From positions 156,493,577 to 156,557,576 of the forward strand of contig CP136065.1 in assembly GCA_032622095.1 (NCBI GenBank): DNA of 64,000 nt, written 5' to 3'. Every line of letters starts with the position of its first letter. The stretch's first letter is position 1. The stretch comes from Siphonodentalium dalli. Taxonomy: Eukaryota > Mollusca > Scaphopoda > Gadilida > Siphonodentaliidae. The notes under the pieces were generated by a model. That model did not search any database. It saw only the letters and a program-made list of their open reading frames with translations, and had not been told where the DNA came from. A program made the position numbers and the translations under genes. This document shows, one piece after another, positions 4,655 to 63,725 of the stretch.

Positions 4655-5619
4655 TTAAGGGGGAGACGCACGTTTTGCATAAATCACAGTAAATCCAGCC
4701 AGAAATGGCAAGTGATTTTCAACAAAGAATTTCTCTGGATCTATCTGGTGAAAAATCTTGAATTTTACATATGATAATTTTCATTATATATAGAATCAGA
4801 GCAATTATAAAGAGACAATAACAATAATGGATTTTAATACATTTGAGAGGTTGAAAATATTTGTTTCGTTTCTGTCCCTTCAGGTACCGAGAACTGCCAG
4901 AAAAAATTATAATTTCAAACAACATGTCAACCATCAAATAGCTTATTGTCTTGACTCCATGAGAGGAGGCTTCATTTGTATCATAATGTTGAGTTAGCTT
5001 TTTAATTGCATATTATAGCATCATACCCCATGTATTATAATGAAGAACAAAGCAGTCACAAATATGCCAGCCCAATGAAAACAAATGTTCAAATGTGGTG
5101 CTGTCCACTCAAGCAGGGAGCAATCAACAGAAATTAGGCCACAGTGTTAAGAGATATGGTGGTCAGATTTAACTTGGTTATGAACCCATGACCCAGAACT
5201 CAACTGAGCCCAATTTTTCAATGACCAACAAGCATGGCATGAAAATTCTCAATAATACAAAATTATTTATGGTAGTTGTCTTTCTGAATGAAAATAATCA
5301 TTTAATTTCATGAATCAAGAAAAATTAAGTCTCCTCTCATGATCTTCAAATATGTTATCATGTATATATGAAATGCACTTTCAAAAAAAATCTGTTTTAC
5401 AGTAGTTCTCGGTACCTGAACACAGTGAAATTTTAAAGATTTTTCATGCCATAAAAGTAAAGTAAATGAGATTATAATAACCAAATGTCCAATGGTTCTT
5501 ATGTATGGTACCACAATAATCTCTTGTACAAAATTTCACAAAGATATTCCTGATAGATTTAGAGAAAATACATTTTGAAATACCAGGAAAGTTTGGCAAA
5601 ACGTGCGTCTGACCCTTAA
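4655..5619. mobile_element. TTAA-flanked non-autonomous DNA element, family A copy 2
   Basis: This is the best-preserved family A copy. It runs from TTAAGGGGGAGACGCACG (4655) to CGTGCGTCTGACCCTTAA (ending 5619), with inverted ends of about 20 bp and TTAA at both edges. The interior parallels 265-1199 step by step, for example GGATTTTAATACATTTGAG near 4827 and CTCAAGCAGGGAG near 5110. There is no transposase. A 149-residue reading frame on the minus strand crosses its right edge (5444-5893) and is a chance product of the junction. Confidence 0.75.
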
Positions 5620-9884: not shown

Positions 9885-10080
9885 TTAATGCCCTAAATAA
9901 TCGACTCCTTAACCACAGCAGAATTATTGGTAATTTGTTATGATTTAGTCGGAAGTATGGCTTGTTGCCATTCATCGGAAAGCTCTCCGATGAATGGCAA
10001 CAATCCATATTTTCGACTAAATCATGAAAAATTACCCATAATTCTGCTGTGGTTAAGGAGTCGATTATTTTGGGCATTAA
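9885..10080. mobile_element. TTAA-flanked palindromic MITE, family C
   Basis: It is flanked by TTAA at 9885-9888 and 10077-10080. The ends are TGCCCTAAATAATCGACTCC and its complement. Nearly all of the 190 bp is self-complementary, with the centre near 9985 (CATCGGAAAGCTCTCCGATG). One end of this family, GTTAC...TTCTGCTGTGGTTAAG...TTAGGGCA, is also present inside both arms of the large palindrome (37612-37658 and 43289-43335). That shows the family has been active elsewhere. Confidence 0.8.
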
Positions 10081-11445: not shown

Positions 11446-11699
11446 CAAGCCTTGAAATAATGTGTCTGTCATTTGCAGAATGAGGTCCCCAGAGGGTGAA
11501 TTTAGTGATGCTACCCCGTATAGCGGGATAGCATCGCCAAATTCACCCTCTGGGGACCTCACTCTGCTTACATCTCAGCAGAATGAGGTTCCCAGAGGGT
11601 GAATTTGGTGATGCTAGCCCGCTATGCGGGGTAGCATCACTAAATTCACCCTCTGGGGACCTCATTCTGCAAATGACAGACACACTATTTCAAGGCTTG
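11446..11699. repeat. Double-hairpin foldback repeat
   Basis: An outer inverted pair (CAAGCCTTGAAATA / TATTTCAAGGCTTG, continuing through TGTCTGTCATTTGCAG) encloses two tandem hairpins of 93 bp. Hairpin 1 is 11475-11567 and hairpin 2 is 11578-11670. Each hairpin has stems built on GCAGAATGAGGT...CAGAGGGTGAATTT and a tip of CCCGNTATNCGGG type. The whole unit is itself a palindrome, so it can fold either as two hairpins or as one long one. There is no coding capacity. Confidence 0.85.
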
Positions 11700-16916: not shown

Positions 16917-17584
16917 TCTCATATATATTTTGAAGACCTCTGTTTGTTTGTTTGTTTGTTTGTCTGTCTGTCTGTCTGTCATTTATACAAATCTACGATT
17001 CTCGACCGATCGGGACGAAACTTGGTACGTGTGTGTAGTTTGACCAGGCGGTGAACGTTGTCGTATTGGCGAGCCCGTGCGGCGCCCGCTTCGCGCATGC
17101 GCAGACGAGATCTCGGAAACGGGTGGAGCTATCGACTTGAAATTTGCTATGTGAATGTATCTTGCCCCGGATACGAATGTTATCGGGTCGCCGAGCCCGT
17201 GCGAAACCAGCTTCGCGCATGCGCAGACGAGATCTCGGAAACGGGTGGAGCTATCGACTTGAAATTTGCTATGTGAATGTATCTTGCCCCGGATACGAAT
17301 TTTATCGGGTCGCCGAGCCCGTGCGACGCCAGCTTCGCGCATGCGCAGACCAGATCTCGGAAACGGGTAGAGCTATCGACTTGAAATTTGCTATGTGAAT
17401 GTATCTTGCCCCGGATACGAATTTTATCGGGTCGCCGAGCCCGTGCGACGCCAGCTTCGCGCATGCGCAGACCAGATCTCGGAAACGGGTAGAGCTATCG
17501 ACTTGAAATCGTCGGGCTGGGTAGAGCTATCGACTTGAAATTTGGTTTTTGAATAGCCCGGACAACGTCGGGCTCATCGGCTAG
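16917..17584 (+). mobile_element. Helitron unit 1 (668 bp)
   Basis: The longest unit. It holds the (TTTG)n(TCTG)n tract at about 16939-16980, then four copies of the roughly 118 bp subrepeat (GAGCTATCGACTTGAAATTTG...TTCGCGCATGCGCAGAC), a partial terminal hairpin near 17507-17517, and the complete terminal hairpin plus CTAG at 17581-17584. Confidence 0.8.
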
Positions 17585-18025
17585 TCTCATATATATTTTG
17601 AAGACCTCTGTTTGTTTGTTTGTTTGTCTGTCTGTCTGTCATTAATACAAATCTACGATTCTCGACCGATCGGGACGAAACTTGGTACGTGTGTGTAGTT
17701 TGACCAGGCGGTGAACGTTGTCGTATTGGCGAGCCCGTGCGGCGCCCGCTTCGCGCATGCGCAGACGAGATCTCGGCAACGGTTGGAGCTATCGACTTGA
17801 ATTTTGGTATGTGAATGTGTCTTGCCCCGGATACGAATTTTATCGGGTCGCCGAGCCCGTGCGATGCCAGCCTCGCGCATGCGCACACGAGATCTCGGAA
17901 ACGGGTGGAGCTATCGACTTGAAATTTGGGTTTTTGAATAGCCCGGACAACGTCGGGCTGGGTAGATCTATCGACTTGAAATTTGGTTTTTGAATAGCCC
18001 GGACAACGTCGGGCTCATCGGCTAG
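17585..18025 (+). mobile_element. Helitron unit 2 (441 bp)
   Basis: Starts directly after the CTAG of unit 1. It has two 118 bp-type subrepeats and two copies of the terminal hairpin region. The first copy (from 17941) lacks CTAG and the second ends with CTAG at 18022-18025. The doubled terminator suggests recombination between units. Confidence 0.8.
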
Positions 18026-18409
18026 TCTCATATATATTTTGAAGACCTCTGTCTGTATGTATGTTTGTTTGTCTGTCTGTCATTTATACAAATCTACGAT
18101 TCTCGACCGATCGGGACGAAACTTGGTACGTGTGTGTAGTTTGACCGGGCGGTGAACGTTGTCGTATTGGCGAGCCCGTGCGGCGCCCGCTTCGCGCATG
18201 CGCAGACGAGATCTCGGAAACGGGTGGAGCTATCGACTTGAAATTTGCTATGTGAATGTATCTTGCCCCGGATACGAATTTTATCGGATCGCCGAGCCCG
18301 TGCGACGCCAGCTTCGCGCATGCGCAGACCAGATCTCGGAAACGGGTAGAGCTATCGACTTGAAATTTGGTTTTTGAATAGCCCGGACAACGTCGGGCTC
18401 ATCGGCTAG
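18026..18409 (+). mobile_element. Helitron unit 3 (384 bp)
   Basis: The shortest unit: microsatellite, two subrepeats, one hairpin and CTAG at 18406-18409. Its proportions make it the best model of a single complete element. Confidence 0.8.
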
Positions 18410-18836
18410 TCTCATATATATTTTGAAGACCTCTGTCTGTCTGTCTGTCTGTTTGTTTGTCTGTCTGTCATTAATACAAATCTACGATTCTCGACCGATC
18501 GGGACGAAACTTGGTACGTGTGTGTAGTTTGACCAGGCGGTCGTCGTTGTCGTATTGACGAGCCCGTGCGACGCCAACTTCGCGCATGCGCAGACGAGAT
18601 CTGGGAAACGGGTGGAGCTATCGACTTGAAATTTGGTATGTGAATGTATCTTGCCCCGGATACGAATTTTATCGGGTCGCCGAGCCCGTGCGACGCCAGC
18701 TTCGCGCATGCGCAGACCAGATCTCGGAAACGGGTAGAGCTATCGCATGCGCAAACCAGATCTCGGAAACGGGTGGAGCTATCGACTTGAAATTTGGTTT
18801 TTGAATAGCCCGGACAACATCGGGCTCATCGGCTAG
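18410..18836 (+). mobile_element. Helitron unit 4 (427 bp)
   Basis: Last unit. The microsatellite has more TCTG than the others. A partial duplication around 18740-18780 repeats CGCATGCGCA..CCAGATCTCGG. The terminal hairpin carries one change (AACATCGGGC). CTAG at 18833-18836 is followed by T. Confidence 0.8.
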
Positions 18837-18879
18837 TAAAATATATTTAAACAAAAAACTAAGTTCTCCAGACTTACAC

Positions 18880-26239: not shown

Positions 26240-27480
26240 ATATGGACATATGTGTCGCCTCGAGAGGGAATTTATGGGACCTACATTTTTGGTTAGTGTA
26301 AATACTAAACTTTCGGAATCCGTATGTTGGATATGTCAGATAGGCGGACTTTTTTTCTCACCGCGTGGTTTTCTTGAGGCACCCGATGAAAACATCGGTC
26401 ATTTTTAAAATAAAACCGACATTATTGACTGAGTATTTTCACACATTTTGAGAAGAAATATTCGTCCAATTTTGATACCTGAGAGTGGGGCGATAACCAG
26501 AGTAGGGTAATACATATAACCATTGAATCTCGGAATGACAATCATGACGTCATGTGACGTCGATTAATATTTTGGGTGAGACAAATATGACGATTCACGC
26601 AAAGCGTTGTCTTTCGTTTCTTTTAAATCACAAAGTAAGATGGGTATGCCACATTGTTTTGTACCGTGTGAAACTACTGCCAATTGTCTATATTTTGATA
26701 TATAACTTATCGCTGCAGGCCGCATTATTTTTTATCAGAGACAGAAAAATCAACCCTCCCCCTAAAGTTAAGATGCGCCATGCTGTGGTATAAGGCACAC
26801 ATAACTCACGGTTACATGTCAATAGGCTTAATTACCACAACGGCCGTTGAAAGTCTGCTAAAGAATGTAATAATATATAAGTTCCTGTCTACAAACTCGA
26901 ACATTAAAGTAGAAACAATATATAATGTACCCCCAGACCCGAAATTTTTATAAATTTTCGAATTTTTCATAAAAAATGATATAAAACGCATTTTTTTAAA
27001 TTTTCTGGAAGGCAAACAAAAGAAAAGAATTAGTAAGGATGGACATAATTCGTGTATACGGCAATTTCATTCCGCCTTGGATTAAAAAATTACATACTAA
27101 TCCAAAATGGCTGCCAATATGGCAGCCGCAATATAGGTGGAAATTGGGAAATATGTAAGAATGCACAATTACTTGCTTAAATGGCTTAACTAACAAAGCT
27201 GTCGTTGATGAACTGCTAAACTATAGTTCAATGTATATATCCCGATTTAAAAACTCGAACAATAAAGTGAAAATTTTACACAATGCACCTCCTGGCACAA
27301 AACTTTGATAAAATTGTGCTATTTTTCTCCAAAAATTAACCTAAAGCCATTTTTTGTCATCTTCTCGGAAGCCATAAAGCGCAGAATGTAGCGTGGTGGA
27401 GATATTTTTTGTGTACTATAATTCAATGTCGTTTTTGGATTACAAAATGGCTTAATAACGCATTTATCGCCATTGCCGCC
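26240..27480 (+). repeat. Left inverted repeat of the 6 kb element
   Basis: The outer part is single-copy (GGTTAGTGTAAATACTAAACTTTCGGAATCC; AAATATTCGTCCAATTTTGATACCTG; GACGTCATGTGACGTCG). The inner part is a degenerate tandem repeat of about 350-380 bp marked by ACGGCCGTTG..., AACTCGAACA.TAAAGT, TTTT..CATCTTCTCGGAAG and ATGGC(T)GCCA. Units start near 26844 and 27190. Confidence 0.65.
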
Positions 27481-30959: not shown

Positions 30960-32231
30960 ACAATTTCCATCCATATACCGGCAACCGTTTTGGCAGCCAT
31001 TTTGGGGGTAATATGTCATGTACATGTAGTAACCGACGACTGCATGAAATTATCGTACATACAAATTATATCCACACACGCTACATTATTGTCTTTACGC
31101 ATTTTCGAGAAGATGACAAAAAGAGGTTTTTGATTAGTTTCGAACTAAACTAATTAAATATTTAATTAAAAATTGGGACCAGGAGGTGCTATGTGTACCG
31201 GTTTCACTTAACTTTTCTAGTCGATGGATCGGGATATACATGTTACATAAAACTGTAGCAGCTTATCAACGGCCGTTGTGTTAGTTAAGCCATTTTGGCA
31301 AGTAATCGTGCGTTCTTACAAATTTTACAATTCCCACCTATTTACCGGCCACCATATTGGCAGCCATCTTGTGTTATTAGGCCAGTTTTTAAACCAAGAC
31401 GGAACGAAATTACCGTATACACTAATTATGTCCACCCTTAATCCATTATTTTCATTTTTGCATCCCGGAAGAAGACAAAATGCATTTTTAGATTATCTTT
31501 TTGGGGAAAAAATCTAAAAAAAATTAAATAATTGAGTCAGGATGTACATTATGCAATATTGTTACTTTAATGCTCGGCTGTGTCGATCGAAACATATATT
31601 AGACAATACTGTAGCAGTCCATCAACGGCCGTTGTGTTAATTTCGCAATTTGGCACATAATCGTGCGTTCTGTGTGCCTTACACCACAGCCTGCCGCCTC
31701 TCAGCTTTAGGGGAGGGTTGATTTTTCTGCCTTTGATAAAAAATAATGCGACCAAAATCGATAAGTGATATATTATAACATAGCTAATTGGCAGTAGTTT
31801 CCCATGGTATAAACTAATTGGGAATAACCATCTTACTTCTGATTTTATAAGAAACGAAAAACAACGCTTTGCGGGAATCGTCATATTTTTCTCACCCTAA
31901 AAATTATTTTACGTCACATGACGTCATAACTGTTATTCCGAGATTCAATGGTTACTTGTATTATCTTACTCTTGTTATCGCCCCATTCACAGGTATCAAA
32001 ATTGGACGAATATCTCATCTCAAAAGGTGTGAATATACTCTGTCAAATATGTCGGCTTTATTGAAAAAAATACCGATTTTATCAACAGGTGCCTCAATAA
32101 AACCACGCGGTGCGAAAAAAGTCCGCCTATCTGACAAAGCCAACATACGGATTCCGAAAGTTAAGTGTTCATGCTAACCAAAAATGTAGGTCTCATAAAT
32201 TCCCTCTCCAGGCGACACCTATGTCCATATT
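30960..32231 (-). repeat. Right inverted repeat of the 6 kb element
   Basis: Reverse-complement counterpart of 26240-27480. The inner tandem units are marked by CAACGGCCGTTGTGTTA at about 31267 and 31623 and by TTGGCAGCCAT(T/C)TTG at about 30991 and 31359. The outer part contains TACGTCACATGACGTCATAAC and GGATTCCGAAAGTTAAGTG. Confidence 0.65.
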
Positions 32232-35785: not shown

Positions 35786-35791
35786 GATAGC
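35786..35791. repeat. Target site duplication GATAGC (left)
   Basis: The same six bases lie at 45094-45099, immediately outside the other end of the palindrome, in the same orientation. A 6 bp duplication is what Polinton/Maverick integrases produce. Confidence 0.85.
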
Positions 35792-35800
35792 AGAAGAATA

Positions 35801-36028
35801 GATGTCTCGTTGGATTCACATCTAAAAATAGAATCTTTGGGTCTAAAATTGGTTGTGGATGCCTCGTTAGATTCACATCTAAAAATAGAATCTTTGGGGT
35901 CTAAAATTGGTTGTGGGTGTCTCGTTACCTTCACATCTAAAAATAGAATCTTTGGGTCTAAAATTGGTTGTGGGTGTCTCGTTCGCCTCACATCTCAAAA
36001 TAGAATCTTTGGGTCTAAAATTGGTTGT
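35801..36028 (+). repeat. Tip iterons, 57-58 bp unit x4 (left)
   Basis: Units start at about 35801, 35858, 35916 and 35973. Each contains CTCGTT..., CACATCTAAAAATAGAATC and TTTGGGTCTAAAATTGG. They sit within 10 bp of the element tip. Ordered iterons at a transposon end are candidate transposase or replication-protein binding sites. A fifth copy lies near the element centre (40118-40160). Confidence 0.8.
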
Positions 36029-36044
36029 ACTAAAATATTCACAA

Positions 36045-36380
36045 AAACCCCAAACTTCCAAAATATCAAAACTTCCAAAAAAAAATTTCAAAACCCAAAA
36101 CTTCCAAAATTTCAAAAACTTCCAAAATTTCAAAAACTTTCAAATATTTCAAAAATTTCAAAAACTTCCAAAATTTCCAGAATTTCCAAAACTTCCAAAA
36201 TTTCAAAAACTTCCAAAATTTCAAAAACTTACAAAATTTCAAAAACTCCAAAAATTTCAAAAACTTCCAAAATTTCCAAAACTTCCAAAATTTCCAAAAC
36301 TCCAAAAATTTCCAAAACTTCCAAAATTTCCAAAATTTAAAAAACTTCAAAAATTTCCAAAACTTCAAAAATTTCAATAT
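36045..36380 (+). repeat. AAAACTTCCAAAATTTC minisatellite (left)
   Basis: A 16-19 bp degenerate unit alternating CTTCC and TTTCA inside A/T runs. Long open frames across it on both strands are lysine/serine or tryptophan/phenylalanine-leucine repeats and are spurious. The mirror copy is 44493-44855. Confidence 0.85.
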
Positions 36381-36468
36381 AATGAAGATGACGAGCAACC
36401 AATTTTCGACTGGCCTGAGGCATTACGTTATGGAATGAATAACGACAGCGGATCAGAATGCATACATA

Positions 36469-36965
36469 TAGTACGTCACTTGGACATTTTATCAGTTTAT
36501 CACGTGATCACTAAATGTGGCAATCGGGTATCCACCGATGCCTGCAATGTATTATTTATAATAATTGGACTCATTGATCTCACGTAAATAATACTCTTAG
36601 TTGTTCCAATAAAATAGTTATCAAATTCGATCACCAATAGATTTGACTGTGGAATGTAATGACCTTTAACTTATTTATCGATCTAAAGGGACACTCATTA
36701 TGAATGAATGTTAACAATACAAGCGCACGAATGAAGAGCGTTGAACATATACGAAATTACTACACGAATGAATTGAACCTTGAAATTTATATTTCACATC
36801 TTACCAACAACAGCTACAGACATAATCATAGTATTATACTGTCTTGCATGTACACACACTATGACATCATTAAAGGCGGACAATCCACTCACGGTGTGAC
36901 AACAGATACGGACATAGGCATAGTGTTATACAGTCTTCTATGTACCCACGCTATGACACCATTAA
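36469..36965 (+). repeat. Arm segment duplicated within the same arm
   Basis: 36469-36687 reappears at 37922-38137 and 36685-36958 at 38533-38808, in the same orientation. A shortened relative lies at 38305-38450. Each arm therefore holds two versions, and the whole element four. A 92-residue frame at 36704-36982 differs from its 85-residue counterpart at 38554-38811 mostly by amino-acid-changing substitutions, so I do not call it a gene. Confidence 0.75.
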
Positions 36966-37010
36966 CGTACATTGGATGTTAGGTCTATGACTCTTGAGTA
37001 TGCACCAATC

Positions 37011-37542
37011 AATGAGCAAATGAGCAATAAAAATGAGCAAATGAGCAAAAAAATGAGCAAATGAGCAATAAAATGAGCAAATGAGCAATAAAATGAGCAA
37101 ATGAGCAAGAAAATGAGCAAATGAGCAAGAAAATGAGCAAATGAGCAAGAAAATGAGCAAATGAGCAAGAAAATGAGCAAATGAGCAAGAAAATGAGCAA
37201 ATGAGCAATAAAAATGAGCAAATGAGCAATAAAAATGAGCAAATGAGCAAAAAAATGAGCAAATGAGCAAGAAAATGAGCAAATGAGCAATAAAAATGAG
37301 CAAATGAGCAAGAAAATGAGCAAATGAGCAAGAAAATGAGCAAATGAGCAATAAAAATGAGCAAATGAGCAATAAAAATGAGCAAATGAGCAAAAAAATG
37401 AGCAAATGAGCAAAAAAATGAGCAAATGAGCAAAAAAATGAGCAAATGAGCAAAAAAATGAGCAAATGAGCAAGAAAATGAGCAAATGAGCAAGAAAATG
37501 AGCAAATGAGCAAAAAAATGAGCAAATGAGCAAAAAAATGAG
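37011..37542 (+). repeat. AAATGAGC tandem array, left arm (532 bp)
   Basis: About 26 copies of a 19-20 bp composite (AAATGAGCAAATGAGCAANA). The corresponding array in the right arm is 453 bp, about four units shorter. Three overlapping minus-strand open frames through the array are repeat artefacts rich in the residues FAHLL. Confidence 0.95.
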
Positions 37543-37611
37543 ATGTAACATTATATCACTGTTATTGTATCAATTGATAGGTTCAGACAAGTTCGATGTT
37601 TAGAAAAGAAA

Positions 37612-37658
37612 AGTTACCTATAATTCTGCTGTGGTTAAGCAGTCCATTATTTAGGGCA
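37612..37658 (-). repeat. Fragment of TTAA MITE family C (left arm)
   Basis: Matches one end of the palindromic MITE at 9885-10080 (ATTCTGCTGTGGTTAAG, ending TTTAGGGCA). Only one end remains. It is mirrored at 43289-43335, so it was present before the palindrome formed or was spread by conversion between arms. Confidence 0.7.
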
Positions 37659-38943
37659 TACCTGTATGTAGGCCTATCAGTGGATGAATAGTCTGTCGGA
37701 GAAGTACTGTGTAGACAGGTCTTGACGGTAAGAGAGTCAGAAGAGAAGTGAAGGCTCGGCTATTAAAACATAGTAATGCGATAGCGAACATCAAACGAGT
37801 CTGCGCACGCATATCTGTCAAAAGGATACAATAGCAGTCATTGGTCAATTTATCCCCGGTGTCAGCTCAGTACCCAATCGGGACGAAGCCGAAGGTCAAC
37901 TCATTTTTTTTTGCTCATTATAATACGTCACTTGGACATTTTATCAGTTTATCACGTGATCACTAAATGTGGCAATCGGGTATCCACCGATGCCTGCAAT
38001 TTATTATTTATAATAATTGGACTCATTGATCTCACGTAAATAATACTCTTAGTTGTTCCAATAAAATAGTTATCAAATTCGATCACCAATAGATTTGACT
38101 GTGGAATATAATGACCTTTAACTTATTTATCGATCTATGTTAGAACATGGTCTTAACAAAAAACTTGACCATAACAAAAATTACCTTACATTTATGCATG
38201 AATCTAATTAGACCATACGTAAATATTGTCAGCTTATCGTCTGATGAGCAAATCCGATGTTTATCAAAAATAGTACAACTTCCAGTTGGTAATTACTCTT
38301 ACGAATGAAGAGCGTTGAACATATACGAAATTACTACACGAATGAACTGAAATTTATATTTTCACATCTTACCAACAACAGATACAGACATAGTCATAGT
38401 GTTATACTATCTTACATGTACCCATGCTATGACATCATTCGAAGGGGCAATACACTCAAGGAGTTAAAGTGACACGAAACAAGGGACGTGATGTAATATT
38501 GGTGTTTGAATCTTAAAGGAACACAAGACACTCTAAAGGGGCACTCATTATGAATGAATGTTAACAATACAAGCACACGAATGAAGAGCGTTGAACATAT
38601 ACAAAATTACTACACGAATGAATTGAACCTTGAAATTTATATTTCACATCTTACCAACAACAGCTACAGGCATTATCATAGGGTTATACTGTCTTGCATA
38701 TACACACGCTATGACATCATTAAAGGCGGACAATCCACTCACGATGTGACAACAGATACAGACATAGGCATAGTGTTATACAGTCTTCTATGTACCAATG
38801 CTATGACATAATTAAAGGGGGATAATACACGCACGGTGTGGAATGTTAAAGTGACACGCGGTAAGGGACGTGATGTAATATTGGTGAAACCCCCTCCCCA
38901 CTTATAGATATATAACGAAGACGAGAATAACATGTTGATGAAG

Positions 38944-38949
38944 TTTATT
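38944..38949 (-). terminator. Polyadenylation signal AATAAA, zinc-finger gene (left arm)
   Basis: On the minus strand AATAAA begins six bases after the stop codon at 38955. The mirror copy is at 41997-42002. Confidence 0.6.
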
Positions 38950-38954
38950 GAAAT

Positions 38955-39524
38955 TTAATCATTGTCTGAATCTTCGACCGTTAGATTTACTTCTAAGAGT
39001 TTCTTGAATTTTCTCATCGCTTCATCTGCAGCCCATTCATTATTATATCCGTGTTTGGTCAGTTTGACCATTTTCTTCATGATCATGGTATGTATACGTG
39101 ATGTTTTCAATCGATACTGGTATTCTATTAATCGTCTATAACTTTTGAGAAACAGAGCAAACTCTGTGTCGATGGTATCCTCTTTTCCCGACATGCTCTC
39201 ATCTCCCGAAATGCTCTCTTCTTCTTTCACATCATTGGTGACGCGTTTCATCATACTTTTGAATGTGTCCATCTCGTTGACACATCGCGCAGCTTTCTTA
39301 AGACCGAATACCGTTCTACTACCGACGCCATTACCATCTTCTGAATCTGATAGCGTTCCACGTTCATCTTCATCTGAATCTAGAACCGCTTCGTCAGATT
39401 CATCGGTATCTTCTCCGAAGAGAGTTGGTTTTGTCTCGGACATAACTCCGTGTTTAATCTGTTTATGTCTTTGTAGATTGTAGTTCGTCGATAAAATAAT
39501 GCCACATAAATCACACCCGTGCAT
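38955..39524 (-). CDS. C2H2 zinc-finger acidic protein, 189 aa (left arm copy)
   Basis: I do not recognise a named family. Residues 4-25 form one C2H2 finger (C4-x2-C7-x12-H20-x4-H25), preceded by no signal peptide. Residues about 34-62 are strongly acidic (EDTDESDE...DSDEDE), and a second acidic stretch (EEES..GDES) lies near 101-116. The C-terminal half (about 120-180) is lysine/arginine-rich and looks helical (LKSYRRLIEYQYRLKTS; MIMKKMVKLTKHGY). The chosen start gives the finger directly after the initiator, and AATAAA follows the stop. It lies 190 bp beyond the 107-aa gene and is transcribed the same way, outward from the element centre. A TATAAG motif lies about 30 bp upstream of the ATG. 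The likely role is DNA or RNA binding for the element, which is inference. The same protein is encoded at 41422-41991. Confidence 0.75.
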   Translation of the reverse strand: MHGCDLCGIILSTNYNLQRHKQIKHGVMSETKPTLFGEDTDESDEAVLDSDEDERGTLSDSEDGNGVGSRTVFGLKKAARCVNEMDTFKSMMKRVTNDVKEEESISGDESMSGKEDTIDTEFALFLKSYRRLIEYQYRLKTSRIHTMIMKKMVKLTKHGYNNEWAADEAMRKFKKLLEVNLTVEDSDND

Positions 39525-39551
39525 TATCGCGAATTATTGGAAGAACCATCA

Positions 39552-39562
39552 CTCTTATAAGT
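39552..39562 (-). promoter_or_regulatory. TATA-like motif CTTATAAGAG (left, zinc-finger gene)
   Basis: It sits about 30-35 bp upstream of the zinc-finger ORF start. A similar TTTATAAGAGG lies upstream of the 107-aa ORF, so both genes of an arm may share a promoter type. Confidence 0.45.
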
Positions 39563-39714
39563 AGCGATAAAAAGAGAGAATAAGGTGTGGTATACAACCG
39601 TCGCTCTAAGAGTACGTTCGTCCCGGGGGGCTAGGGTATAGATATTTGACCGCCGGTGATTCAATTAATGCCAATTTATCAGTATGGTACTCTATGTATT
39701 CATTCATGATTTGG

Positions 39715-40038
39715 CTAATCGTATGACACTGATCTTTTCATTTTCTTCTTATTATTAGACAAACCTCCATCAGACACTCTCTTGTTGGTTTGTTTGGACG
39801 CTTTACGAGTGTTTGTCAACTTATTTGCTGCAACTTCAGCCTTAGCCATTTCAATCGCTTGAGCGATGGGTGTCACCACGTTAATAATTGGTTTTAGAAC
39901 GTCTTCTTCACTATCACTATTTTTAGTTCTGTCAATAAAGTATCGACCCTGATTATCTGGTATTAACTTCCCATCAACCATATCTCTGAAATGTTTTCGC
40001 CACATTTCAAGATCTGCTGGAATATACGGGATCGACAT
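39715..40038 (-). CDS. 107-aa basic-tailed protein, IPYIP N-terminus (left arm copy)
   Basis: Unrecognised small protein. The N-terminus MSIPYIP is followed by an amphipathic W/H/F-containing helix (residues 9-22) and a short acidic patch at 41-46 (DSEED). Residues 47-75 form a hydrophobic then alanine-rich helix (PIINVV...AIEMAKAEVAANK). The lysine/arginine-rich tail (78-102) has a nuclear-signal-like KKKMKR. No membrane segment or catalytic motif. Its codons are intact and identical in protein sequence to the mirror copy at 40908-41231. It is the first gene outward from the centre, with the 189-aa zinc-finger gene downstream. A basic tail would suit a nucleic-acid-binding or core-like protein of a Polinton, but that is only a suggestion. 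Confidence 0.7.
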   Translation of the reverse strand: MSIPYIPADLEMWRKHFRDMVDGKLIPDNQGRYFIDRTKNSDSEEDVLKPIINVVTPIAQAIEMAKAEVAANKLTNTRKASKQTNKRVSDGGLSNNKKKMKRSVSYD

Positions 40039-40097
40039 GTTTCTTCAAAATGTACAAGTCACTCTTTTTTCTGCATTTTATTTTAGAAAGTTTATCG

Positions 40098-40107
40098 CCT
40101 CTTATAA
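40098..40107 (-). promoter_or_regulatory. TATA-like motif TTTATAAGAGG (left, 107-aa gene)
   Basis: Lies about 60 bp upstream of the 107-aa ORF start, on the edge of the shared central region. Its mirror is at 40839-40848. Divergent use from both sides would make the centre a bidirectional promoter. Confidence 0.45.
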
Positions 40108-40387
40108 AAATCGATTATTGCATCTAAAAATAGAATCTTTGGGTCTAAAATTGGTTGTACTAAAATATTCCCAAAAACCCAAAACTTCAAAAATTTCAAA
40201 AAACTTCAAAAATTTCAAAAAACTTCAAAAATTTCAAAAACTTCAAAAATTTCAAAAATTTCAAAAACTTCAAAAAACTTCAAAAATTTCAAAAACTTCA
40301 AAAATAAGACCCCGCCGGCGGCGGACCCCGACGGCGGCGGCACCGCCGGCGGCGCCAGTTGTTGTTGTTGGTGGTGTTGTTGTTGTT

Positions 40388-40390
<3 letters not shown>

Positions 40391-40439
<49 letters not shown>

Positions 40440-40440
40440 C
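40391..40440 (+). repeat. (CGG)n triplet repeat
   Basis: About 16 uninterrupted CGG-type triplets, next to (GTT)n at 40360-40390. The mirror side has only five CCG triplets before (CAA)n, so this is the most asymmetric part of the palindrome. Strong G-rich structure is expected. Confidence 0.9.
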
Positions 40441-40479
40441 GGCATTGCGGTATTTTACTGGGGCGACGGCGCCGCCGCC

Positions 40480-40502
40480 GGGGTCCGCCGCCGGCGGACC
40501 CC
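40480..40502. repeat. Central hairpin, 10 bp stem and 3 nt loop
   Basis: GGGGTCCGCC-GCC-GGCGGACCCC is a perfect all-but-one GC-paired stem at the physical centre of the palindrome. It is enclosed by TATTTTACTG / CAGTAAAATA (40451-40460 and 40504-40513). It would seed extrusion of the entire 9.3 kb cruciform. Confidence 0.8.
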
Positions 40503-40838
40503 GCAGTAAAATACTGCAATACCGCCGCCGCCGCCGCCACAACAACAACAACAACAACAACACCACCAACAACAACACCAACAACAACTGGCGCCGCCGG
40601 CGGTGCCGCCGCCGCCGGGGTCCGCCGCCGGCGGGGTCTTATTTTTGAAGTTTTTGAAATTTTTGAAGTTTTTTGAAGTTTTTGAAATTTTTGAAATTTT
40701 TGAAGTTTTTGAAATTTTTGAAGTTTTTTGAAATTTTTGAAGTTTTTTGAAATTTTTGAAGTTTTGGGTTTTTGGGAATATTTTAGTACAACCAATTTTA
40801 GACCCAAAGATTCTATTTTTAGATGCAATAATCGATTT

Positions 40839-40848
40839 TTATAAGAGG
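40839..40848 (+). promoter_or_regulatory. TATA-like motif TTTATAAGAGG (right, 107-aa gene)
   Basis: Mirror of 40098-40107, about 60 bp upstream of the ATG at 40908. Confidence 0.45.
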
Positions 40849-40907
40849 CGATAAACTTTCTAAAATAAAATGCAGAAAAAAGAGTGACTTGTACATTTTG
40901 AAGAAAC

Positions 40908-41231
40908 ATGTCGATCCCGTATATTCCAGCAGATCTTGAAATGTGGCGAAAACATTTCAGAGATATGGTTGATGGGAAGTTAATACCAGATAATCAGGGT
41001 CGATACTTTATTGACAGAACTAAAAATAGTGATAGTGAAGAAGACGTTCTAAAACCAATTATTAACGTGGTGACACCCATCGCTCAAGCGATTGAAATGG
41101 CTAAGGCTGAAGTTGCAGCAAATAAGTTGACAAACACTCGTAAAGCGTCCAAACAAACCAACAAGAGAGTGTCTGATGGAGGTTTGTCTAATAATAAGAA
41201 GAAAATGAAAAGATCAGTGTCATACGATTAG
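40908..41231 (+). CDS. 107-aa basic-tailed protein (right arm copy)
   Basis: Encodes the same 107 residues as the minus-strand gene at 39715-40038 (IPYIP start, alanine-rich central helix, KKKMKR tail), transcribed away from the centre. The two ATGs are 870 bp apart and face away from each other. No difference was seen between the two coding sequences, although nearby repeats differ. That points to recent origin, arm-to-arm conversion or selection. The function is unknown. Confidence 0.7.
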   Translation: MSIPYIPADLEMWRKHFRDMVDGKLIPDNQGRYFIDRTKNSDSEEDVLKPIINVVTPIAQAIEMAKAEVAANKLTNTRKASKQTNKRVSDGGLSNNKKKMKRSVSYD

Positions 41232-41383
41232 CCAAATCATGAATGAATACATAGAGTACCATACTGATAAATTGGCATTAATTGAATCACCGGCGGTCAA
41301 ATATCTATACCCTAGCCCCCCGGGACGAACGTACTCTTAGAGCGACGGTTGTATACCACACCTTATTCTCTCTTTTTATCGCT

Positions 41384-41394
41384 ACTTATAAGAG
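41384..41394 (+). promoter_or_regulatory. TATA-like motif CTTATAAGAG (right, zinc-finger gene)
   Basis: Mirror of 39552-39562, about 30 bp before the ATG at 41422. The spacing fits a core promoter with a short leader. Confidence 0.45.
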
Positions 41395-41421
41395 TGATGG
41401 TTCTTCCAATAATTCGCGATA

Positions 41422-41991
41422 ATGCACGGGTGTGATTTATGTGGCATTATTTTATCGACGAACTACAATCTACAAAGACATAAACAGATTAAACACGGAG
41501 TTATGTCCGAGACAAAACCAACTCTCTTCGGAGAAGATACCGATGAATCTGACGAAGCGGTTCTAGATTCAGATGAAGATGAACGTGGAACGCTATCAGA
41601 TTCAGAAGATGGTAATGGCGTCGGTAGTAGAACGGTATTCGGTCTTAAGAAAGCTGCGCGATGTGTCAACGAGATGGACACATTCAAAAGTATGATGAAA
41701 CGCGTCACCAATGATGTGAAAGAAGAAGAGAGCATTTCGGGAGATGAGAGCATGTCGGGAAAAGAGGATACCATCGACACAGAGTTTGCTCTGTTTCTCA
41801 AAAGTTATAGACGATTAATAGAATACCAGTATCGATTGAAAACATCACGTATACATACCATGATCATGAAGAAAATGGTCAAACTGACCAAACACGGATA
41901 TAATAATGAATGGGCTGCAGATGAAGCGATGAGAAAATTCAAGAAACTCTTAGAAGTAAATCTAACGGTCGAAGATTCAGACAATGATTAA
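41422..41991 (+). CDS. C2H2 zinc-finger acidic protein, 189 aa (right arm copy)
   Basis: Same protein as at 38955-39524: one C2H2 finger at residues 4-25, two acidic stretches, and a basic helical C-terminal half ending VEDSDND. It lies 190 bp downstream of the 107-aa gene on the same strand. AATAAA at 41997-42002 follows the stop. The length and single N-terminal finger do not match a host transcription factor I know. A Polinton accessory protein is the best guess. A separate spurious frame on the opposite strand (41463-41801) should be ignored. Confidence 0.75.
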   Translation: MHGCDLCGIILSTNYNLQRHKQIKHGVMSETKPTLFGEDTDESDEAVLDSDEDERGTLSDSEDGNGVGSRTVFGLKKAARCVNEMDTFKSMMKRVTNDVKEEESISGDESMSGKEDTIDTEFALFLKSYRRLIEYQYRLKTSRIHTMIMKKMVKLTKHGYNNEWAADEAMRKFKKLLEVNLTVEDSDND

Positions 41992-41996
41992 ATTTC

Positions 41997-42002
41997 AATA
42001 AA
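41997..42002 (+). terminator. Polyadenylation signal AATAAA (right arm)
   Basis: Begins six bases after the stop of the zinc-finger ORF, mirroring 38944-38949. Confidence 0.6.
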
Positions 42003-42137
42003 CTTCATCAACATGTTATTCTCGTCTTCGTTATATATCTATAAGTGGGGAGGGGGTTTCACCAATATTACATCACGTCCCTTACCGCGTGTCACTTTAA
42101 CATTCCACACCGTGCGTGTATTATCCCCCTTTAATTA

Positions 42138-43024
42138 TGTCATATCATTGGTACATAGAAGACTGTATAACACTATGCCTATGTCTGTATCTGTTGTCAC
42201 ATCGTGAGTGGATTGTCCGCCTTTAATGATGTCATAGCGTGTGTATATGCAAGACAGTATAACCCTATGATAATGCCTGTAGCTGTTGTTGGTAAGATGT
42301 GAAATATAAATTTCAAGGTTCAATTCATTCGTGTAGTAATTTTGTATATGTTCAACGCTCTTCATTCGTGTGCTTGTATTGTTAACATTCATTCATAATG
42401 AGTGCCCCTTTAGAGTGTATTGTGTTCCTTTAAGATTCAAACACCAATATTACATCACGTCCCTTGTTTCGTGTCACTTTAACTCCTTGAGTGTATTGCC
42501 CCTTCGAATGATGTCATAGCATGGGTACATGTAAGATAGTATAACACTATGACTATGTCTGTATCTGTTGTTGGTAAGATGTGAAAATATAAATTTCAGT
42601 TCATTCGTGTAGTAATTTCGTATATGTTCAACGCTCTTCATTCGTAAGAGTAATTACCAACTGGAAGTTGTACTATTTTTGATAAACATCGGATTTGCTC
42701 ATCAGACGATAAGCTGACAATATTTACGTATGGTCTAATTAGATTCATGCATAAATGTAAGGTAATTTTTGTTATGGTCAAGTTTTTTGTTAAGACCATG
42801 TTCTAACATAGATCGATAAATAAGTTAAAGGTCATTATATTCCACAGTCAAATCTATTGGTGATCGAATTTGATAACTATTTTATTGGAACAACTAAGAG
42901 TATTATTTACGTGAGATCAATGAGTCCAATTATTATAAATAATAAATTGCAGGCATCGGTGGATACCCGATTGCCACATTTAGTGATCACGTGATAAACT
43001 GATAAAATGTCCAAGTGACGTACT
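42138..43024 (-). repeat. Mirror of the left-arm segment 37922-38808
   Basis: Contains the second version of the arm duplication in reverse order. Two single-base differences from the left arm are visible: the base at about 42147 in ATATCATTGG versus ATAGCATTGG, and TGTATTGTG at about 42415 versus TGTCTTGTG in the complement of the left arm. The arms are therefore close but not identical. Confidence 0.7.
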
Positions 43025-43288
43025 ATAATGAGCAAAAAAAATTGAGTTGACCTTCGGCTTCGTCCCGATTGGGTACTGAGCTGACACCGGGGATAAATTG
43101 ACCAATGACTGCTATTGTATCCTTTTGACAGATATGCGTGCGCAGACTCGTTTGATGTTCGCTATCGCATTACTATGTTTTAATAGCCGAGCCTTCACTT
43201 CTCTTCTGACTCTCTTACCGTCAAGACCTGTCTACACAGTACTTCTCCGACAGACTATTCATCCACTGATAGGCCTACATACAGGTAT

Positions 43289-43335
43289 GCCCTAAATAAT
43301 GGACTGCTTAACCACAGCAGAATTATAGGTAACTT
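43289..43335 (+). repeat. Fragment of TTAA MITE family C (right arm)
   Basis: Mirror of 37612-37658. It begins TGCCCTAAATAAT, the same as the terminus of the complete copy at 9885-10080. Confidence 0.7.
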
Positions 43336-43403
43336 TTCTTTTCTAAACATCGAACTTGTCTGAACCTATCAATTGATACAATAACAGTGATATAATGTTA
43401 CAT

Positions 43404-43856
43404 CTCATTTTTTTGCTCATTTGCTCATTTTTTTGCTCATTTGCTCATTTTTATTGCTCATTTGCTCATTTGTATTGCTCATTTGCTCATTTTTATTGCT
43501 CATTTGCTCATTTTCTTGCTCATTTGCTCATTTTCTTGCTCATTTGCTCATTTTTTTGCTCATTTGCTCATTTTTTTGCTCATTTGCTCATTTTTTTGCT
43601 CATTTGCTCATTTTTATTGCTCATTTGCTCATTTTCTTGCTCATTTGCTCATTTTTATTGCTCATTTGCTCATTTTTTTGCTCATTTGCTCTTTTTATTG
43701 CTCATTTGCTCATTTTTATTGCTCATTTGCTCATTTTCTTGCTCATTTGCTCATTTTCTTGCTCATTTGCTCATTTTCTTGCTCATTTGCTCATTTTATT
43801 GCTCATTTGCTCATTTTTTTGCTCATTTGCTCATTTTTATTGCTCATTTGCTCATT
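43404..43856 (-). repeat. AAATGAGC tandem array, right arm (453 bp)
   Basis: Complement of the left array but about four units shorter, with private variants (TTTGTATTGC near 43469 and a TTTGCTCTTTT interruption near 43686). These private differences show the two arrays have evolved separately. Confidence 0.95.
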
Positions 43857-43915
43857 GATTGGTGCATACTCAAGAGTCATAGACCTAACATCCAATGTAC
43901 GTTAATGGTGTCATA

Positions 43916-44400
43916 GCGTGGGTACATAGAAGACTGTATAACACTATGCCTATGTCCGTATCTGTTGTCACACCGTGAGTGGATTGTCCGCCTTTAATGA
44001 TGTCATAGTGTGTGTACATGCAAGACAGTATAATACTATGATTATGTCTGTAGCTGTTGTTGGTAAGATGTGAAATATAAATTTCAAGGTTCAATTCATT
44101 CGTGTAGTAATTTCGTATATGTTCAACGCTCTTCATTCGTGCGCTTGTATTGTTAACATTCATTCATAATGAGTGTCCCTTTAGATCGATAAATAAGTTA
44201 AAGGTCATTACATTCCACAGTCAAATCTATTGGTGATCGAATTTGATAACTATTTTATTGGAACAACTAAGAGTATTATTTACGTGAGATCAATGAGTCC
44301 AATTATTATAAATAATACATTGCAGGCATCGGTGGATACCCGATTGCCACATTTAGTGATCACGTGATAAACTGATAAAATGTCCAAGTGACGTACTATA
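43916..44400 (-). repeat. Mirror of the left-arm segment 36469-36965
   Basis: First version of the arm duplication in reverse orientation. A 92-residue minus-strand frame here is identical in translation to the one at 36704-36982 and, for the reason given there, is not called a gene. Confidence 0.7.
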
Positions 44401-44492
44401 TGTATGCATTCTGATCCGCTGTCGTTATTCATTCCATAACGTAATGCCTCAGGCCAGTCGAAAATTGGTTGCTCGTCATCTTCATTATATTG

Positions 44493-44855
44493 AAATTTTT
44501 GAAGTTTTGGAAATTTTTGAAGTTTTTGAAATTTTGGAAATTTTGGAAGTTTTGGAAATTTTTGGAGTTTTGGAAATTTTGGAAATTTTGGAAGTTTTGG
44601 AAATTTTGGAAATTTTGGAAGTTTTTGAATTTTTTGGAGTTTTGGAAATTTTGTAAGTTTTGGAAATTTTGGAAGTTTTTGAAATTTTGGAAGTTTTGGA
44701 AATTCTGGAAATTTTGGAAGTTTTTGAAATTTTTGAAATATTTGAAAGTTTTTGAAATTTTGGAAGTTTTTGAAATTTTGGAAGTTTTGGGTTTTGAAAT
44801 TTTTTTTTGGAAGTTTTGATATTTTGGAAGTTTGGGGTTTTTGTGAATATTTTAG
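44493..44855 (-). repeat. CTTCC/TTTCA minisatellite (right)
   Basis: Mirror of 36045-36380 with a slightly greater length and different unit order. Confidence 0.85.
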
Positions 44856-44857
44856 TA

Positions 44858-45085
44858 CAACCAATTTTAGACCCAAAGATTCTATTTTGAGATGTGAGGC
44901 GAACGAGACACCCACAACCAATTTTAGACCCAAAGATTCTATTTTTAGATGTGAAGGTAACGAGACACCCACAACCAATTTTAGACCCCAAAGATTCTAT
45001 TTTTAGATGTGAATCTAACGAGGCATCCACAACCAATTTTAGACCCAAAGATTCTATTTTTAGATGTGAATCCAACGAGACATCT
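44858..45085 (-). repeat. Tip iterons, 57-58 bp unit x4 (right)
   Basis: Reverse complement of the left iterons, with the same order of variants in all four units. Confidence 0.8.
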
Positions 45086-45093
45086 ATTCTTCT

Positions 45094-45099
45094 GATAGC
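45094..45099. repeat. Target site duplication GATAGC (right)
   Basis: Matches 35786-35791. Sequence beyond it (CTAATATCG...) does not mirror the left flank. Confidence 0.85.
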
Positions 45100-60959: not shown

Positions 60960-62045
60960 AATCATCATCACTATCACGGTGAGTCACCAATGACTCACCA
61001 TCAACACCTAGTCAATCCTCAAATCATAATCACACCATCATCGTCGTCATCCCACTATCACCGTAAGTCACCATCAACACATCGTCAATCCTCAAATCAT
61101 AATCACACCATCATCGTCATCATCCCACTATCATCATCATCACTATCACCGTGAGTCGCCATCAACACATAGTCAATCCTCAAATCATAATCACACCATT
61201 ATCGTCAGCATCACTATCACCGTGAGTCGCCATCAACACATAATCAATCCTCAAATCATAATCACACCATCATCGTCATCATCCCACTATCACCGTGAGT
61301 CACCATCAACACATAGTCAATCATCAAATCATAATCACACCATCATCGTCATCATCCCACTATCACCGTGAGTCACCATCAACACATAGTCAATAATCAA
61401 ATCATAACCACACCATCGTCGTCATCATCCCACTATCACCGTGAGTCACTATCAACACATAGTCAATCATCAAATCATAATCACACCATCATCGTCATCA
61501 TCCCATTATCATCATCACTATCACCGTGAGTCGCCATCAACACATAGTCAATCCTCAAATCATAATCACACCATCATCGTCATCATCCCACTATCATCAT
61601 CATCACTATCACCGTGAGTCACCATTAATACATACGCACTCCTCAAATCATAATCACACCATCATCGTCATCATCCCACTATCACCGTGAGTCACCATCA
61701 ACACATAGTCAATCCTCAAATCATAATCACACCATCATCGTCATCATACCACTATCACCGTGAGTCACCATCAACACATAGTCAATCCTCAAATCATAAT
61801 CACACATCATCGTCATCATCCCACTATCACCGTGAGTCACCACCATCAGCACATAGTCAATCCTCAAATCATAATCACACCATCATCGTCATCATCCCAC
61901 TATCATCATCATCACTATCACCGTGAGTCGCCATCAACACATAGTCAATCCTCAAATCATAATCACACCATCATCGTCATCATCCCACTATCACCGTGAG
62001 TCACCATCAATACATAGTCAATCCTCAAATCTTAATCACACCATC
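60960..62045 (+). repeat. CAT-rich minisatellite, unit about 73 bp, roughly 14 copies
   Basis: The unit contains CACTATCACCGTGAGTC, GCCATCAACACATAGTCAA, TCCTCAAATCATAATCACAC and CATCATCGTCATCATCC. Some units have an extra ATCATCATC block. Serine/histidine-rich frames across it (60906-61154, 61687-62261) are repeat artefacts. Confidence 0.9.
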
Positions 62046-63725
62046 ATCATCCCAATATCAACCGTCATCATTTCCCCCGCAATCTCCAGCGCCTGCATCG
62101 CCATCAACAATAAATATCCCTGCAAACGTTTATGCTGGCTACTTATCAGCCAAAAAAGTTCGACACAAACGCAGATCCATGTGTATATTCAGACCAAATC
62201 CTTGGCTCTCAGGAGAATAAAGCTAAACTATAAATATCACGTTTTAATTGATGCTAATTAAGAAGAGTATATTAAACGCGAATATATTTGCACTTTACTT
62301 TATCCTCATTCACGTTTAATCAGTGTTTATCGACAGTAACCCAAACATCGATTTGTTCAAGGGCGTATGAAACTTTCTTTAATGGTGCTGTAATAGGGCA
62401 TGGTGCTCGTGTGTCTTGGAAATAATCGACTACTTAAAGTTCTGTTAACTGGAACTTAACCTTACCAATATAGTCAGGTTTTATAATCGCCTGTCTGACA
62501 TGTTGGGTAAACACACCAATAACTTTATCGTCTTGTGAGTTTTCACACAGGAGAACTTTATCTCAAATAGTTTTATGCAGGTATATCATATTTTGGTCCA
62601 TAATAAATTTATACCCACAAAATGCATTGCCCTTGTAGGTGCGCTTGGTCGGTAACTTTACTGGGATTTTAATATGTGCTTATCAGTTCAGTTATGTTGG
62701 TAGTGAAGTCCCTCCTGTGTATGAAGAGCACCCCGGCATGCTGGGTTTCTTTAAAAAATCAAAGTGCATGTCTAGCATGACTAAGTTTTAAAAATCCAAA
62801 AATATAACATATTAGATCAGATAAGATAAGAGTTTGAGTAGAAGGGAATTTCTGTCTATTTACAATATAATTTTTTTTGAAAGCTCTATATTTTGCTAAA
62901 AGATTGGTACATGTGATGTACATGTTATATCTTGAATTTGCTGTATCGTGCCTGTACAGCTCACTGTGTCTTTTTATTGTTTGTCGTGTCAGCACTTTCA
63001 GAGTGTTCACTATTATACATGTATATAACCCATAGAGGTAATATCTCTCAGAAGTTTCTATTAGCAATGTTACTGTATGGGAGACGGTGGTGTTCTAGTT
63101 TGGTACAATCTATAGTCAATTGTGTCACGATGACTGTTCGTCTAATATCATTGGTTTCAATGATTGATGCTGGCACTATTTATGACACGTGATCTGGTTT
63201 ATCGCAGTGAATCGCTGCTCAGGTCTGCAATGAACAGAATGTTGTGTATATCGGCAATAACAGTCAGAGCAAATTATTACTATTTCTTTTTCTGTCCCTT
63301 TTATACAGACCAGTATGTTGTTTCATCGACTTGCTACCCTGAGAGTTAAAGATGTTAACCTTGAGAAATTTATCATTGGAGATACTACTCTAAGTGATAC
63401 ACAAAACAAGAACCTATTTAGGTCTGGTCAATCATATATAACTTCGACATCGAACTTCGAGCTATCCATGTAATGCTAAAAAGTTATGTTAGTGTTTTGG
63501 CATGTTCGGCTAATCTGCGTGATTTGAGAAGCCGTTGTCTATGAAAGAATCAAGAACAAATTTTATTTAAATAATGGCTGTGGTGAGCGTGCTATGTTAG
63601 CCATTTCAATTATGATAGGTTTGCAACAACACACAACCATTATAAAATACTTTACAATATGCATGTTTTTTAACAATAGATACAGACGTTTTTTCCTCAA
63701 TCGTTCAGATCGCGAAAATTTCAAC
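62046..63725. other. Unassigned stretch
   Basis: No supported gene. Short frames around 62759-63349 on both strands have no recognised domain. Confidence 0.4.

Follow-up and report, generated by a model that had tools for sequence, protein, structure and literature searches.

A 9.3-kb tip-to-tip palindromic element flanked by a 6-bp target site duplication in the scaphopod Siphonodentalium dalli

Structure and boundaries of the palindrome

A 64,000-bp stretch of DNA from the scaphopod mollusc Siphonodentalium dalli (assembly GCA_032622095.1, contig CP136065.1, positions 156,493,577 to 156,557,576), referred to here as the window and numbered from its first base, contained a 9302-bp element at 35792-45093 that formed an inverted repeat from tip to tip when the window was compared with its own complement. 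In this self-comparison, 37092-43856 was an inverted match to itself at 97.9%, and 35791-37462 was an inverted match to 45094-43404 at 97.7%. Outside a central core, the left arm covered 35792-40307 on the forward strand and the right arm 40639-45093 on the reverse strand, as delimited by self-comparison and arm-to-arm alignment. An earlier note on this DNA had described a 9.3-kb palindrome from tip to tip with mirror symmetry continuous to the centre. Both analyses confirmed the palindrome, and the continuity held in the arms but not in the last ~330 bp (40308-40638), where the symmetry was imperfect.

The element tips carried AGAAGAATAG, and the tip sequence of the element was AGAAGAATAGATGTCTCG. 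The target site duplication (TSD) GATAGC, which had also been claimed for the outer sides of the element, was found by sequence match at both tips (35786-35791 and 45094-45099, forward strand); by our arithmetic, a 6-bp match at two fixed places has a chance of ~1 in 4096. Since a T precedes GATAGC at both sides, the duplication can alternatively be read as 7 bp (TGATAGC). The sequences outside both tips had no mirror symmetry, and these unmirrored flanks, together with GATAGC beside both tips, indicated a discrete insertion and a bounded unit. The proposal that a self-mirrored, gene-bearing unit had been inserted with a target duplication was upheld by the palindrome, the duplication, the flanks and the open reading frames (ORFs) described below. 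No second copy of the element was present in the window, where only short matches of ~50 bp were found.

Hairpin-read artefacts are known to show near-identical arms, and the arms of this element match that pattern. A hairpin read or a mis-joined inverted duplication in the library or assembly is nevertheless a highly improbable explanation, because the symmetry stopped at the tips, inside identical 6-bp duplications, the flanks were unmirrored, and the array lengths differed between the arms. The hairpin read in particular was rejected on account of the flanks.

Alignment of the two arms gave 38 places of difference, with 20 in an 18-bp and a 20-bp tandem array, 14 in the central core and four single substitutions elsewhere, at arm positions 2113, 2132, 2736 and 3010. 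The last of these fell within a two-copy 92-bp repeat (38657-38840). Outside the core and the four arrays (35803-36028, 36052-36377, 37011-37542 and 40181-40305), and with the 92-bp repeat included, the arms thus differed by four substitutions in 3307 bp. The differences in the arrays consisted of one extra 18-bp unit in the right arm, extra stretches of 41 and 42 bp in the left arm, and point differences. The outermost 431 bp counted from each tip were identical between the arms, as were arm positions 3011-4539, which included both of the main ORFs.

The core (40308-40638), delimited by repeat finding, folding and alignment and assigned to neither strand, was a GC-rich, imperfect nested hairpin that contained GTT and GGC arrays. 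These trinucleotide arrays were unequal between the two sides, and 43 nt (40461-40503) had no mirrored partner except in their own hairpin. Folded as single-stranded DNA, 40300-40648 reached -215.4 kcal/mol, compared with a mean of -105.4 kcal/mol for shuffled sequences (sd 4.8, n=100).

Open reading frames and repeats of the arms

Each arm contained two main ORFs, both oriented from the centre to the tip. ORF1 (107 aa) was located at 39715-40038 on the reverse strand of the left arm, with a letter-identical copy at 40908-41231 on the forward strand; ORF2 (189 aa), with a start resembling a C2H2 finger, was located at 38955-39524 on the reverse strand, with a letter-identical copy at 41422-41991 on the forward strand. 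The TATA-like box TTATAAGAG was found 5' of ORF2 (39552-39560, reverse strand, mirrored at 41386-41394) and 5' of ORF1 (40099-40107, reverse strand, mirrored at 40839-40847), and four of its five occurrences on both strands of the window were within the element. An AATAAA directly followed the ORF2 stop (38944-38949, reverse strand, mirrored at 41997-42002), a hexamer that was common in the element. When 37561-40100, a region picked after the ORFs were known, was simulated 2000 times with a first-order Markov model, an ORF of at least 189 aa appeared in one run and a second ORF, of 107 aa or more, in two runs, and from these low counts the ORFs exceeded chance. The two ORFs probably encode proteins of the element that are expressed from both arms.

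The start of ORF2 matched the Pfam family zf-C2H2 with E = 0.003 and 18.3 bits, below the cut-off of 25.2, and ORF2 is perhaps a DNA-binding regulator; the arm had one other Pfam match, to Spc25 (E = 0.061). In the protein collection, where 3 and 67 candidates shared words with the queries, neither ORF1 nor ORF2 had a homologue at E <= 0.001; no relative was confirmed among 20 and 14 pattern-matching stretches in IMG/VR, and a PDB sequence search up to E = 1 gave no match for either. Two IMG/VR contigs that matched a peptide motif were discarded, since their matching frames were unrelated to ORF1 by eye. A scan for the tip unit returned no match, the PHROGs scan of the arm ORFs gave no match better than E 0.067, and the structure models of the two ORFs were poor, with mean predicted local distance difference test (pLDDT) values of 43.0 and 66.2. 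Neither Rfam at its gathering scores nor a tRNA scan with the bacterial code yielded a match.

In one arm, 13 ORFs of 40 aa or longer began with ATG, and ten of these were scanned, the others being two repeat-array frames and one 40-aa ORF. No match to protein-primed DNA polymerase B, to a Gypsy-type integrase, or to a packaging ATPase, protease or capsid protein was found in these ten with Pfam and PHROGs, in agreement with the earlier note, which had listed polymerase, integrase, ATPase and capsid genes as absent. A P-type transposase was likewise not matched in the ten.

The arms also contained repeats. From the left tip inward (forward strand), an array of 57-bp units (35803-36028, mirrored at 44857-45082) was followed by an 18-bp (9-bp) array with the unit AAACTTCCAAAATTTCAA (36052-36377, mirrored at 44492-44833) and by a 20-bp array with the unit AATGAGCAAATGAGCAAAAA, which had 26.3 copies in the left arm (37011-37542) and 22.3 in its mirror (43404-43856). 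The stretch 36467-36965 was repeated directly within the arm, with 36467-36685 found again at 37919-38137 (98.6%) and 36682-36965 at 38532-38815 (94.7%). Next to the core, an inner tip-type copy (40121-40305, forward strand, right mirror at ~40641-40825) comprised part of a 57-bp unit, a linker and an 18-bp-type array, and was directly, not inversely, oriented relative to the left tip; it was 85% identical to 35991-36174, and 38 bp of it matched 35819-35856 at 100%. In the upstream flank, a short palindromic repeat (9888-10077) had ~50 bp in common, at 90-92%, with the arm stretch 37608-37659 (mirrored at 43287-43338), and this stretch looks as if it were half of a repeat resembling a miniature inverted-repeat transposable element (MITE).

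Several other repeats were found in the window. A separate 254-bp near-perfect inverted repeat at 11446-11699 was 93.7% identical to its own complement and had an internal 103-bp repeat, and a complex array at 16917-18837 was built from 122-, 388- and 441-bp units with GC above the surroundings. A 1.2-kb inverted pair (26240-27423 and 31048-32230, 79% identity) is possibly an older repeat, and a direct pair of ~0.9 kb (289-1199 and 4690-5619) had 81% identity. At 60961-62048 there was a 73-bp satellite-like array, with a GC skew of -0.66 over 61001-62000. The window had no long ORFs, which together with its repeats suggests a eukaryotic host genome, and Pfam searches with ten flanking ORFs and four more gave only matches under the curated cut-offs.

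Origin of the mirrored arms

The structural features of foldback elements were present here, namely long terminal inverted repeats (TIRs) with internal tandem repeats and a flanking TSD. We favour, at roughly even confidence, a non-autonomous foldback-type DNA element that is all inverted repeat, with ~4.6 kb per arm, whose arms were made by fold-back copying and whose integrase or transposase was supplied in trans. In such a process, a smaller precursor strand would have folded back on the imperfect GC-rich hairpin now at 40308-40638, the 3' side of the hairpin would have primed copying outward to the tip, and two initially identical arms would have resulted. The symmetric molecule would then have been inserted by an integrase or transposase acting in trans on the AGAAGAATAG tips, and the arms would afterwards have diverged slightly, chiefly in the arrays.

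The palindrome with its duplication, the unmirrored flanks, the strong core hairpin and the tip-type sequence flanking the core fit this origin. It is also supported by ORFs beyond chance and by TTATAAGAG, which stands before both ORFs and only once elsewhere in the window. The two sides of the core were more diverged than the arms (3 of 79 positions, taken from two stretches chosen by eye from the alignment with the microsatellite excluded, versus 4 of 3307; Fisher p = 0.0004), which fits an older imperfect hairpin from which perfect arms were copied outward. Because the inner tip-type sequence is directly oriented beside the core, the core and its two tip-type flanks resemble a small foldback unit, belonging to the same family and nested within the element. 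A tail-to-tail dimer of a TIR element was considered and rejected, since it would require the inner tip-type sequence to be oriented the other way.

Several points weigh against the foldback-type origin. A single copy was observed, so that the case for mobility as a unit depends on one target duplication. The ten arm ORFs scanned out of 13 yielded no transposase. Gene conversion homogenising the arms would equally yield near-identical arms, and the higher divergence of the core may instead reflect GC-rich repeats that mutate faster or are assembled less well. The longest ORF reached at least 107 aa in 150 of the 2000 simulations, so that one such ORF alone is not rare. In addition, foldback-like elements with TSDs given in the sources consulted have 7-10 bp, compared with 6 bp here.

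The tandem arrays and internal direct repeats within the arms would also be expected if an ordinary TIR transposon had taken its interior into the TIRs step by step, through unequal exchange or gene conversion and without fold-back copying, and the TIRs of Galileo are reported to have grown through expansion of direct tandem repeats and recruitment of internal sequence. We regard this stepwise extension as unlikely, because the near-identity of the arms extended over ~4.5 kb and took in the ORFs, and most differences lay in the arrays and core, which suggests one event.

A viral source of the arms was also weighed. Polintons have a 6-bp TSD and AG...CT tips, and symmetric defective adenovirus genomes carry a palindromic duplication of one genome end made by fold-back copying; our literature search turned up nothing on the latter. 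The end of a Polinton- or adintovirus-like genome might in the same manner have folded back during strand-displacement replication to yield a symmetric molecule that carried the end and its early genes twice and was inserted by a helper integrase. The tips and the 6-bp duplication, present here in one copy and with 7 bp as the alternative, agree with this snap-back origin, as do the compact genes, the common TATA-type box and the AATAAA right after one stop. Zinc-finger regulator genes are described for some adintoviruses (PMC11071296), a possible likeness to this element, and a casposon model based on Polintons, as outlined in its source, involves a single-stranded intermediate with the TIRs paired as a panhandle (PMC4046053). 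A snap-back origin is possible but doubtful, as none of the polymerase, integrase, ATPase, protease and capsid proteins was matched in the ten arm ORFs and neither main ORF had a homologue in the protein collection or IMG/VR. Its fuller form, in which the locus would be an endogenised self-complementary defective genome of such a virus, with a mirrored end bearing two early genes and a common promoter box, a GC-rich hairpin as the snap-back point and a helper integrase, is unlikely in our view.

The earlier note had gone further and called the element a Polinton derivative. This assignment was not sustained, since no Polinton protein was matched in the scanned ORFs, neither main ORF had a homologue, and neither the tips nor the 6-bp duplication is diagnostic. 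Ginger2 likewise prefers 6-bp targets, so Polintons are not alone in having a 6-bp target, although GATAGC does not fit the Ginger2 consensus RTATAY given in the text consulted (PMC2836005). No palindromic Polinton appeared in the titles or abstract openings of the papers listed among those with both 'Polinton' and 'palindrom', which is no claim of absence from print, and the string 'palindrom' did not occur in the accessible text of an adintovirus paper (PMC8363768).

Comparison with known systems

Polintons (Mavericks) and adintoviruses resemble this element in having TIRs, and also in the 6-bp TSD and AG tips. Polintons are described as 15-20 kb long with genes for a protein-primed polymerase B, ATPase, protease and capsid (PMC4046053), none of which was found in the ORFs scanned here. 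Symmetric defective adenovirus genomes share the fold-back duplication of an end, but they are viral DNA and are not known as an integrated unit flanked by a target duplication. Should the arms derive from the end of a virus or Polinton, the element would tie a class of transposons to the defective genomes of viruses, and the route of fold-back copying would be testable. Whole-palindrome mobile elements illustrate a route from a replication error to a new transposable unit.

Among foldback elements, Tetris and Tm1 share with this element long TIRs that contain internal repeats, and most of their copies lack a transposase; unlike this element, they are described with TSDs of 8-10 and 9 bp, a middle region, and non-autonomous copies without coding capacity. 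The closest likeness, by description, is Galileo copy 112 of Drosophila willistoni (P superfamily, foldback-like), which is 9021 bp long, consists only of TIRs (4246 and 4680 bp) with direct tandem repeats in them, and has identical TSDs (PMC4168063). The architecture is therefore not new in general, contrary to what had been suggested, and this record of an all-TIR 9-kb element with identical TSDs was counted in favour of the foldback-type reading. The TSDs of Galileo are given as 7-8 bp with the consensus GTATTAC, compared with 6 (or 7) bp here. Copy 112 lacks a transposase segment and no intact ORF is named in its TIRs in the passages describing it (PMC4168063), whereas the arms here have intact-looking ORFs. 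Its sister copy 147 has at least 545 bp of transposase sequence within its TIRs (PMC4168063), so coding sequence within TIRs is not itself new. Taken as an all-TIR element alone, the S. dalli element extends the known foldback pattern to an element with two orphan ORFs, apparently intact, in each arm. An element made almost entirely of inverted repeat is thus already known, and what differs here is the presence of apparently intact ORFs in both arms and the 6-bp duplication.

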